Shown here piece after piece: positions 36,746-53,304 of a DNA stretch of 64,000 bases. The translations under genes and the position numbers were made by a program. Each line of letters starts with the position of its first letter. Positions within the stretch are counted from its first letter, which is position 1. A model generated the notes under the pieces. It worked only from the letters and a program-made list of their open reading frames with translations, made no database searches and was not told the origin of the DNA. Source of the stretch: Flavobacteriaceae bacterium CG2_30_34_30 (GTDB lineage: Bacteria > Bacteroidota > Bacteroidia > Flavobacteriales > Flavobacteriaceae); assembly GCA_001873105.1 (NCBI GenBank), contig MNYN01000051.1:17090-81089 (forward strand), read 5' to 3'.

Positions 36746-37369
36746 ATGTCATTTACACTGCCAAAACTTAAATATGCATTTAATGCACTAGAACCATATA
36801 TAGACGCAAAAACCATGGAGATACACCACGGGAAACACCATGCGGCATATACAGCAAATCTTAACAAAGCCATTGATGGAACTGATTTGGAGGGGAAAAG
36901 TATTGAAAACTTATTAATTAATTTAGACAAAGACAATAAGCCTGTTAGAAACAATGGAGGAGGGTTTTATAACCACACTTTGTTTTGGGAAATTATGTCT
37001 CCCAAAGGTGGAGGAAAACCAAACGGTAATCTAGCAAGTGCAATAGATTCTGCCTTTGGAAGTTTTGAGGGCTTTAAAGAAAGATTTACTCTTGCTGCGT
37101 CTACTCAATTTGGTTCCGGATGGGCATGGTTAGTGGTTCATAAAGGAGGAAGTGTAGAAGTATGTGCTACTGCTAATCAAGACAATCCTTTAATGCCAGG
37201 TATAGGCTGTGGTGGAACACCGATTTTAGGGTTGGATGTTTGGGAGCACGCTTATTATTTAAATTACCAAAACCGAAGACCAGATTATATAAACGCGTTT
37301 TTTAATGTAATTAATTGGAATGAGGTTTCTTCCAGATATGCTATAGGCAAAGAAGAAGTAAAAGAATAA
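36746..37369 (+). CDS. Superoxide dismutase (Fe/Mn family)
   Basis: Dismutates superoxide to oxygen and peroxide. Metal ligands are visible: His in [12 protein letters not shown] (about residue 27), His in [11 protein letters not shown] (about 76), and Asp/His in [20 protein letters not shown] (about 162-166). The [13 protein letters not shown] segment with Gln near 145 is typical of Mn-preferring members, but many Bacteroidota enzymes accept either metal. The length is 207 aa. There is no signal peptide, so it acts in the cytoplasm. A palindromic terminator lies 26 bp after the stop. Confidence 0.94.
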
Positions 37370-37394
37370 AGAGAATTAAATATAGATATTTAAT

Positions 37395-37425
37395 AAAAAA
37401 AGGGAAACAATTGTTTCCCTTTTTT
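37395..37425. terminator. Palindromic terminator shared by sodA and candidate sRNA A
   Basis: A perfect palindrome, A-run + GGGAAACAA + TTGTTTCCC + T-run, works in both directions. It ends sodA on the plus strand and the element at 37467 on the minus strand. Confidence 0.85.
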
Positions 37426-37467
37426 GGCCCCAAATTTACCATAAACTTAACCTACTTATGCTATGGT
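37395..37467 (-). ncRNA. Candidate small RNA A (tandem element, copy 1)
   Basis: On the minus strand the element reads ACCATAGCATAAGTAGGTTA.. with a 5' hairpin ACCATA/TATGGT closing an 18-nt loop, then an AAATTTGGGGCC single-stranded stretch, then the GGGAAACAATTGTTTCCC terminator with a U tail: about 72 nt in all. A -7 box TATATTTG lies 4 nt upstream (37472-37479). Copy 2 lies 215 bp away in the same orientation. The loop ATAAGTAGGTTAAGTTT is complementary to the CAP-lipoprotein leader at 52780-52796. The RNA is inferred; it could instead be a duplicated leader motif. Confidence 0.5.
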
Positions 37468-37471
37468 GAAA

Positions 37472-37479
37472 CAAATATA
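37472..37479 (-). promoter_or_regulatory. -7 box of candidate sRNA A
   Basis: Minus-strand TATATTTG, an exact TAnnTTTG match, ends 4 nt before the first base of the conserved hairpin, the spacing expected for a transcription start at the hairpin. No convincing TTG at -33. Confidence 0.45.
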
Positions 37480-37609
37480 TTATAAAAATTATCAGTACAT
37501 CTATGTTTTTAGATGAAGCACATTTTTCTTCGTTCAAATACATAAAACAGTAAGAATAAAAGGGGTTTTTAAAGAGAGAAAAATCTGAAAAGATAGGTTG
37601 GTTTAAAAT

Positions 37610-37682
37610 AAAAAAAGGCGAACGAGAGTTCACCTTTTTTTGCCCCAAATCTACCATGAACTTAACCTACTTATGCTATGGT
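37610..37682 (-). ncRNA. Candidate small RNA B (tandem element, copy 2)
   Basis: Same architecture as copy 1: minus-strand ACCATAGCATAAGTAGGTTA.., hairpin ACCAT/ATGGT, then AGATTTGGGGCAAAA and a terminator GGTGAAC-TCTC-GTTCGCC with a seven-T tail. The terminator stem has changed at several positions relative to copy 1, yet still pairs on the minus strand (one U-G wobble); read on the plus strand the same position is a C-A mismatch. This favours minus-strand transcription. Upstream, TACCTTAG is a near-match to the -7 box 5 nt before the hairpin. Also downstream of purF, so it may end that transcript. Confidence 0.5.
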
Positions 37683-37797
37683 AAGCGCTAAGGTAATTTA
37701 AATTGTTGTATTGTAGGACAATAAATACTAATTTTAGATAAAGAACAATAAATATCGATTAAAAGCAAAGATTAATAGGATTTTAACAAGAAAATTA

Positions 37798-39696
37798 TTA
37801 ATAAGCTCGATCAGGATTTCCCTCAAAAAAGTTAATGTAGGCTTTATTTACTACTCGATTGCCTCCAGGAGTTGGATAATTGCCTGTAAAATACCAATCG
37901 CCTAAATTTTTTGGACAAGCAATATGAAGATTATCAACAGATTGAAAGATGATTTTAACCTTTGCTTTGGTGTCTTCGGGCTTAAGTAATTCAGCTATTT
38001 CATCAGATAATTCTTCATCAGTGAATGGTATATAAATTTCTTTCACATGATTTATTACCTCCTTATCCAGAAACTTTTCTTGTTGTTTACACTTGTGATA
38101 TACTTCTTCAATTAGTGCTTGTTTCCCACTTTTTTTAAGAAGACTTAATCCTGCCTGAAAGGCAACTAAGCCTTCCAGCCTTGCCATATCAATACCGTAG
38201 CAATCCGGATATCTGATTTGTGGCGCCGAAGAAACCACCACTATTTGTTTAGGATGTAAACGATCTAGAATTTTTAAAATACTTTTTTTTAAGGTTGTGC
38301 CTCTTACAATACTGTCATCAATTATTACTAAATTATCTTCCGGCTTAATAACACCGTAAGTAATGTCATATACATGTCCCACTAAATCATCTCTACTACT
38401 ATCTTCAGTAATAAAAGTGCGAAGTTTTACATCTTTAATTGCTATTTTTTCGGTGCGTAATTTATGAGATTGAATTTTTTGTAGCAATTCTTCTGTAAGA
38501 CTGTCTTTTAGATCAAGAATGGCTTTGTTTTTTTGTTTGTTAAGTTCGTCTTGTGCCGCTTCTACAAGTCCATAAAACGAAGTTTCCGCTGTGTTTGGAA
38601 TATAAGAAAATACAGTATTTCTAGTGTCATATTGAATTGCTTCTAGTACTTTAGGCATTAATAGCCTGCCGAGTTCTTTTCTTTCTTGATAAATTTCAGC
38701 ATCGCTTCCTCGGGAAAAATAGATGCGCTCAAAAGAGCAAGATTTTCGTTCCACAGGGGCAATAATTTGCTCCATAGTAACTTCTCCCGATTTTTTAATA
38801 ATTAAAGCACATCCCGGGTCTAATTCTTTGACTTCTTCAAACGGGGCATTAAAAACGGTTTGTATTACAGGTCTTTCTGAAGCTACTACCACGACCTCAT
38901 CATCTTGATAAAAATAGGTTGGTCTAATTCCTGCAGGATCCCTAAAAACAAAGGAGTCGCCATGACCTAATAATCCTGCCATAGCATAACCACCATCCCA
39001 TTGTCGAGAGGATTTTTTTAGAATTTTAGCAATATTCAATTTTTTAATAATGTATGGAGAGGCTTCAATTTTTGATAATCCTTTTGCTTTTGCTTTTTTA
39101 TAATGCTTGGAAACAGCATCGTCTAGAAAATGGCCGATTTTTTCCATTACCGTTACGGTATCTGCTTTTTCTTTTGGATGCATCCCTAGTTGGATGAGGT
39201 TCTCAAAAAGTTCCGTTGTATTGGTCATATTGAAATTTCCTGCAATAATTAAATTGCGATGCATCCAATTGTTTTGTCTTAAAAAAGGGTGTACATTTTC
39301 CACGCTATTTTTTCCAAAAGTGCCATAACGCACGTGTCCCAAATATAATTCACCTATAAAAGGGAGGTGTTTTTTTTGCGCAGCTACATCGTTTTTATAT
39401 TCGGGATGCTCTGTAAGATATTCGTTGATTTGAGAATTGATATGGGTAAAAATTTCTTGTATTGGTTGTGCAGCATTCGAGCGCTTCCTGCTTATGTATC
39501 TGTCGCCAGGGTCAACATCTAGTTTTATACTGGCAAAGCCAGCACCATCTTGCCCGCGGTTATGTTGCTTTTCCATCATCAAATACATTTTATTGATGCC
39601 ATAAAATGCTGTGCCATATTTTTCATGGTAGTATTCTAAAGGCTTTAAAAGTCGAATAAGGGCAATTCCGCATTCATGTTTAATAGCGTCACTCAT
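37798..39696 (-). CDS. purF: Amidophosphoribosyltransferase-like class II glutamine amidotransferase
   Basis: Catalyses the first committed purine step, glutamine-dependent formation of phosphoribosylamine from PRPP. The nucleophile Cys9 follows a short propeptide (MSDAIKHECGIALIR), QHNRGQDGAGFAS is the amidotransferase signature, and the PRPP-binding loop is LVIIDDSIVRGTTLKKSI near residue 450. At 632 aa it is about 130 residues longer than E. coli PurF, with an insertion around 385-430 and a C-terminal tail; this long form exists in Bacteroidota. purN lies 3 kb away on the same strand. Whether this long form is the main PurF or a paralogue cannot be told. Confidence 0.85.
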   Translation of the reverse strand: MSDAIKHECGIALIRLLKPLEYYHEKYGTAFYGINKMYLMMEKQHNRGQDGAGFASIKLDVDPGDRYISRKRSNAAQPIQEIFTHINSQINEYLTEHPEYKNDVAAQKKHLPFIGELYLGHVRYGTFGKNSVENVHPFLRQNNWMHRNLIIAGNFNMTNTTELFENLIQLGMHPKEKADTVTVMEKIGHFLDDAVSKHYKKAKAKGLSKIEASPYIIKKLNIAKILKKSSRQWDGGYAMAGLLGHGDSFVFRDPAGIRPTYFYQDDEVVVVASERPVIQTVFNAPFEEVKELDPGCALIIKKSGEVTMEQIIAPVERKSCSFERIYFSRGSDAEIYQERKELGRLLMPKVLEAIQYDTRNTVFSYIPNTAETSFYGLVEAAQDELNKQKNKAILDLKDSLTEELLQKIQSHKLRTEKIAIKDVKLRTFITEDSSRDDLVGHVYDITYGVIKPEDNLVIIDDSIVRGTTLKKSILKILDRLHPKQIVVVSSAPQIRYPDCYGIDMARLEGLVAFQAGLSLLKKSGKQALIEEVYHKCKQQEKFLDKEVINHVKEIYIPFTDEELSDEIAELLKPEDTKAKVKIIFQSVDNLHIACPKNLGDWYFTGNYPTPGGNRVVNKAYINFFEGNPDRAY

Positions 39697-52779: not shown

Positions 52780-52797
52780 AAACTTAACCTACTTATT
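52780..52797 (+). promoter_or_regulatory. Leader segment complementary to the candidate sRNAs
   Basis: AAACTTAACCTACTTAT (52780-52796) ends one base before the ATG at 52798. It is the exact reverse complement of the loop of candidate sRNA A (17 nt) and of sRNA B (16 nt). Two near-copies of TTAAxTCCCAAAxTTAA (52748-52763 and 52771-52786) lie around it. Confidence 0.45.
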
Positions 52798-53304
52798 ATG
52801 AAAAACATTTACAATGGGCTGATAGCCATGACATTACTTATCGCTTTTTCTTCTTGCTCCAAAGACGAATTAACCGATGCCTCTGAAGACCTTTCCTACA
52901 CTGTAGATTTAAACATCGTTATTAAAAATGATGTGACAATGTCCAGAGAAATTTTAGATCTAATTAATGCCCATAGAGCATCAATAGGGTTAAACACTCT
53001 TGCACTAGATCAACAATATGCTTCTGCTTATGCAGTAGATCATACAGATTATATGATAGAAACCGGCAAAATTAATCATGACAATTTTAATTTACGCTCA
53101 CAGGCTTTAAAAGACAAAGGAGCCATACGTGTTGGTGAAAATGTTGCCTTTGGTTATACCGATGCCGCATCGGTTGTAAACGGCTGGTTAAACAGTCCTG
53201 CTCACCGAAATATTATTGAAGGCGATTATTCCCACAGTGGTTTCGGCGTTTTCAAAAATAATGAAGGCAATTACTATTTCACTCAAATATTTTATATGAA
53301 ATAA
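52798..53304 (+). CDS. CAP-domain (SCP/PR1-like) lipoprotein
   Basis: A 168-aa lipoprotein: signal MKNIYNGLIAMTLLIAFSSCSK with lipobox Cys about 20, then a CAP domain: ILDLINAHRASIGLNTLALDQQYASAYAVDHTDYMIETGKINHDNF, with the conserved VGENVAFGYTDAASVVNGWLNSPAHRNIIEG (His-rich signature near 135-150). CAP proteins bind ligands or have peptidase-like function; the bacterial role is mostly unknown. The track start at 52714 lies in the leader and is rejected. The leader carries 17 nt complementary to the candidate sRNAs, so post-transcriptional control at the start region is possible. Confidence 0.87.
   Translation: MKNIYNGLIAMTLLIAFSSCSKDELTDASEDLSYTVDLNIVIKNDVTMSREILDLINAHRASIGLNTLALDQQYASAYAVDHTDYMIETGKINHDNFNLRSQALKDKGAIRVGENVAFGYTDAASVVNGWLNSPAHRNIIEGDYSHSGFGVFKNNEGNYYFTQIFYMK

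Follow-up and report, generated by a model that had tools for sequence, protein, structure and literature searches.

The window (the whole stretch of 64 000 nucleotides that was analysed, from Flavobacteriaceae bacterium CG2_30_34_30) contains two similar elements between purF and the convergent gene sodA (Table 1). They were returned by a repeat search of the window as an ungapped 76-nt direct repeat (37392-37467 and 37607-37682), with copies 215 bp apart and 87% identical. On the minus strand each element comprises a 40-nt core (37428-37467 in copy 1, 37643-37682 in copy 2), followed on its 3′ side by a hairpin and a T-run. A first-pass annotation of this DNA had described twin elements in the same orientation, each with a 40-nt block and an intrinsic terminator; the coordinates and the repeat were reproduced, and the U-G wobble that it had reported on the minus strand of the copy 2 terminator was seen as claimed. 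The box said to end 4 nt before the block of copy 1 was located as TATATTTG. The gap between box and core is 5 nt in copy 2, where the box reads TACCTTAG. The predicted folds of both copies were better than those of 200 out of 200 shuffled sequences (z = -2.9 for copy 1 and -3.7 for copy 2).

Table 1. Features predicted in the purF-sodA region and at the distant target gene (positions in the window).
Feature	Position	Strand	Remark
sodA (Fe/Mn superoxide dismutase), conserved convergent downstream neighbour	36746..37369	+	
sRNA copy 1, nearest sodA	37395..37467	-	predicted 5′ end 37467, ~73 nt; core and family model match
Copy 1 terminator stem-loop GGGAAACAATTGTTTCCC, then T-run	37402..37419	-	
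Copy 1 -7 promoter box TATATTTG	37472..37479	-	same box position conserved across copies
Copy 1 direct-repeat pair TTGAACGAAGA (37527-37537) and TTCATCTAAAA (37507-37517), 20 bp apart	37507..37537	-	probable activator site
sRNA copy 2, nearest purF	37610..37682	-	predicted 5′ end 37682, ~73 nt; core and family model match
Copy 2 terminator stem-loop GGTGAACTCTCGTTCGCC, U-G wobble, then T-run	37617..37634	-	
Copy 2 -7 promoter box TACCTTAG	37688..37695	-	same box position conserved across copies
Copy 2 direct-repeat pair TTATCTAAAAT (37731-37741) and TTGTCCTACAA (37711-37721), 20 bp apart	37711..37741	-	tentative, by eye
purF, conserved upstream neighbour	37798..39696	-	glutamine amidotransferase domains
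Predicted target site AACTTAACCTACTTAT, CAP lipoprotein leader	52781..52796	+	16 contiguous pairs with sRNA
Predicted target gene, CAP (PF00188) domain lipoprotein, 168 aa	52798..53304	+	domain E 1.3e-15

The searches of Rfam and of Flavobacteriaceae genomes that the first-pass annotation had proposed were both carried out. In Rfam, no family reached its gathering score at the element, either in the window or in eight relatives. An exact-pattern search matched at least 118 contig stretches; among the matches listed, those with a genus name belonged to Flavobacteriaceae (Maribacter, Zobellia, Winogradskyella, Lacinutrix, Muricauda and others). As the exact pattern forces the core, a covariance model of the core was built and searched without it. 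The model matched 240 of the 301 Flavobacteriaceae genomes sampled (214 of the 251 good genomes), and this recurrence excludes a chance origin of the core. Its strict search filters may miss diverged copies, and the genomes without the sRNA in this count were not all checked for incompleteness. In a sample of the phylum, 34 of 396 genomes were matched by the model, all 34 within Flavobacteriaceae. Genus g147, probably Flavobacterium, carries a variant core, mostly with CATTAGTAGG in place of CATAAGTAGG.

The location of the elements is also conserved. In 130 of 203 clusters, purF lies on one side in the same orientation and sodA on the other in the opposite orientation; nearly all the remaining ones keep at least one of these genes, and their other flank is mostly an unassigned ORF or the edge of a contig or locus. 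One, two, three, four, five and six copies were counted in 55, 85, 35, 16, 9 and 3 clusters, respectively; truncated loci are undercounted and some genomes appear twice. Repetition and palindromic terminators would also suit a DNA element (a binding site, a REP-like or a mobile repeat) instead of an RNA gene. This is hardly tenable for a block fixed between purF and sodA, of which no further copies were found elsewhere in the source genome, for which searches of plasmids and phages gave no matches, and whose terminators show a base-pairing bias in favour of one RNA strand.

The terminator stems had been said to differ in sequence and still to pair: among 225 unique copies, 204 fold, and 95 different stem arms retain their pairing. 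Terminator G-U pairs numbered 118 on the sRNA strand vs 14 on the other. Upstream of the core, the box TAnnTT(T)G was found at a fixed distance in 295 copies, with a T at -8 in all of them and TA at -12/-11 in 90-92%. Promoter and G-U bias together support the minus-strand transcription proposed previously, the RNA itself not having been observed. In the predicted fold, an open linker joins a 5′ hairpin to the terminator hairpin. The stem of the 5′ hairpin (ACCAU/AUGGU) displays AAGUAGGUUAAGUU; the apical GUAGG and GAUUUGGGG in the linker are unpaired, and the seed is 17 nt long and near-invariant. Of the 225 unique copies, 101 have the linker GGTAGATTTGGG and 114 the linker GGTAAGATTTGGG, which is a shift of 1 nt. 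Since 1-nt linker indels affect about half of the copies, there is no conserved reading frame. One criterion for a trans-acting sRNA, namely its own promoter and terminator without a conserved ORF, is met as far as sequence can tell.

The elements immediately follow purF in its direction of transcription, and the duplex energy of purF leaders is slightly below the background mean, so that a role in cis, as leaders or attenuators of a gene further downstream, and a role in regulating purF or sodA by read-through were also considered. However, every copy comes with a promoter box and a terminator of its own, copies form arrays of one to six, and the next gene is the convergent sodA, without any same-strand gene before it; either role is very improbable. 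The finding that would have refuted the original proposal, a block that in other genomes merely forms the 5′ leader of protein genes, did not materialize: copies there lie between convergent purF and sodA and have their own terminators.

When the copies were aligned on the box, two direct repeats TT(C/T)(A/G)TC(T)AAAA were found 20 bp apart (19-21), with the nearer repeat at a distance of 37 bp from the box. At a spacing of 20, the second repeat scored +2.5 on average; for most other spacings the mean was about -4 to -6. The repeat pair of copy 1 fits this arrangement; that of copy 2 lies ~10 bp nearer to the -7 box than in typical copies. The sharing of this repeat pair among copies suggests that a response regulator is in control. 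The sites bound by LytTR regulators are direct repeats separated by 11-13 bp and situated upstream of promoters (PMC6193735). The activator is possibly a LytTR-type response regulator, which is an inference; four LytTR proteins are encoded in the source genome, without a demonstrated link between any of them and the sRNA repeat site. A promoter-like site with direct repeats also precedes a gene for a NarL-type response regulator that follows a nadE-like gene (G000:C85:23747-23811 and L219). The NarL-type regulator gene (G000:C85:23747) was rejected as a co-regulated gene, most orthologues being without the site and the reversed control pattern being commoner than the pattern itself. At loci L032, L034, L036 and L196-L200, the last copy of the array has a deviant core (GCCATAGC...GGGACG), and TTATTTCCCACAATACCAGTA replaces the usual repeats upstream. 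Judging from these sequences, such copies may be differently regulated. Tandem copies with separate promoters represent a natural case of sRNA dosage.

The target search covered 1.9 of the 2.5 Mb of the source genome. Because CTTATG occurs in the reverse complement of the loop, a start codon can lie within the pairing. Outside the sRNA genes, the sole match with at most one mismatch in the source genome was CTTAACCTACTTATT, which immediately precedes the start codon of the CAP lipoprotein gene (ATG at 52798), 15 kb from the sRNA genes. The leader of this gene ranked first among 1618 start regions (-29.4 kcal/mol, z = -4.85), and its duplex with copy 1 has 16 contiguous pairs and an energy of -30.7 kcal/mol. 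No complementarity was seen by eye for the second CAP paralogue of the source genome. The second-best predicted target was the start region of gldK (TIGR03525; -26.7 kcal/mol), in one genome only. This gldK gene (type 9 secretion/gliding lipoprotein) lies at L357:11229-12602 on the plus strand. In a number of genomes, the coordinates place a CAP lipoprotein gene within ~13-114 kb of the array, which is perhaps an old neighbourhood.

Elsewhere, CAP homologues mostly retain complementarity to the same two RNA segments, with sites such as CCAAATCTAAATTTACCTACTTATG (L323, L328), CCAAATCAAATTTAACCTACTTATG (L342), CCCAAAATAAACTTAACCTACTATG (L327) and GCCCCAAATTTGATG (L315, L316). CCAAATC pairs with the linker and ACCTACTT with the loop, in collinear antiparallel order, and the sequence between the two pairing segments varies among leaders. 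For 30 CAP leaders, the mean energy was -22.0 kcal/mol vs -14.7 for shuffled sRNA (z = -6.1; 0 of 300 as low) and vs -15.0 for shuffled leaders (z = -13.9). Against a background of start regions from 850 further genes of sRNA loci, the CAP leaders gave p = 9e-14. These leaders are related by descent, and the cross-species tests are therefore not independent. Complementarity is weak or absent in about 10 of the 30. A bipartite leader, CCAAATC.. with an exact ACCTACTTATGA, occurs in 26 of the 301 genomes, all 26 of which carry the sRNA (Fisher p = 0.002); in G007 and G074, which have no model match, the CAP homologues show little complementarity. A TAnnTT(T/A)(A/G) box ends ~5 nt before CCAAA in many leaders, which would then consist of little more than the pairing site. 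Another criterion for a trans-acting sRNA is that complementarity to the mRNA of a gene at a different locus be conserved, and the CAP lipoprotein leader satisfies it.

Compensatory change was looked for in g147, in which most sRNAs read CATTAG, not CATAAG. In 22 g147 genomes, a search with a composite, partly made-up CAP sequence as query did not reveal the predicted compensated site ACCTACTAATGA next to the CAP gene. The compensatory-change test gives the CAP target no support in this genus, and outside it the test cannot be made because the conservation of the seed is so high.

A core that is near-invariant throughout the family, multiple copies and short conserved unpaired motifs could also belong to a real RNA that mainly binds or titrates a protein (as 6S or CsrB-type RNAs), with the CAP complementarity being secondary, and no Rfam family is available as a guide to function. 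Start-codon complementarity to one orthologous leader in many genera, collinear for both unpaired segments, would be unexpected for such a sponge, and a mainly protein-binding role is considered improbable. The elements are best interpreted as tandem genes of a family of trans-acting base-pairing sRNAs that repress translation of a CAP lipoprotein, with a probability of roughly 0.8. Their presence, conservation, strand, architecture and complementarity were established by computation. A short, probably trans-acting RNA of ~72 nt, as inferred in the first-pass annotation, remains the best reading in view of the promoter box, the terminator, the G-U bias, the lack of a conserved ORF and the comparatively supported target.

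According to the base-pairing model, a separate TAnnTTTG promoter would drive minus-strand transcription of each copy, probably under activation by a regulator bound to the direct repeats 20 bp apart, and the transcript would stop at its own terminator after ~72 nt. Loop and linker would pair antiparallel with the short leader of the CAP lipoprotein mRNA (CCAAAUC...UUAACCUACUU-AUG). By covering the start region, this pairing would block translation of the lipoprotein. All steps of this model, from transcription and activation to pairing in vivo and repression, are inferred, no expression data being available. That the RNA controls the envelope across Flavobacteriaceae, with a LytTR-type regulator firing the one to six copies and thereby silencing a regulon of surface lipoproteins that includes CAP and GldK, is doubtful. 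To our knowledge, sRNAs with known targets are few in Bacteroidota and fewer in Flavobacteriaceae. Family-wide conservation at one locus, together with a near-invariant seed and a named target, makes sRNA action in flavobacteria directly testable.

The core sequence was not found in the literature searched. LhrC RNAs have a CU-rich seed that pairs with Shine-Dalgarno sequences, which Bacteroidota hardly use; in contrast, the flavobacterial RNA is predicted to cover one CAP lipoprotein leader by its loop and linker. LhrC1-5 of Listeria monocytogenes are multicopy sibling sRNAs with their own promoters, are activated by the response regulator LisR and repress proteins exposed on the cell surface, pairing with their mRNAs where translation starts (PMC5880928). 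The flavobacterial RNA is likewise multicopy with own promoters, whereas activation by a regulator and repression of a surface protein are only inferred for it, and the two are unrelated in sequence. The RNA was filed as a new, previously unnamed sRNA family of an already known kind. FopS sRNAs of Bacteroides (RF04319) are multicopy and act on the susC translation initiation region (PMC11697453). They resemble the flavobacterial RNA in belonging to Bacteroidota, in copy number and in having the translation initiation region as target (a predicted one for the latter), but they occupy separate loci, use a single-stranded 5′ seed (R1′) and lack a 5′ hairpin. Searched with the RF04319 model, the flavobacterial RNA scored 19.2 bits (E 1.7), below the gathering score of 56.

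The Rfp sRNAs of Flavobacterium psychrophilum (e.g. Rfp18) are flavobacterial sRNAs, as is the purF-sodA RNA, and some are conserved in the genus (PMC9723704). Rfp18 is described as pairing via a third stem-loop, whereas the purF-sodA RNA has two. Another Rfp RNA of F. psychrophilum may belong to the same family as the purF-sodA RNA. Flavo-1 RNA (RF01705) is likewise a conserved flavobacterial RNA in Rfam and gave no match to the element. A Flavo-1 RNA was seen at L148:3395-3467 on the minus strand, apart from the sRNA element.
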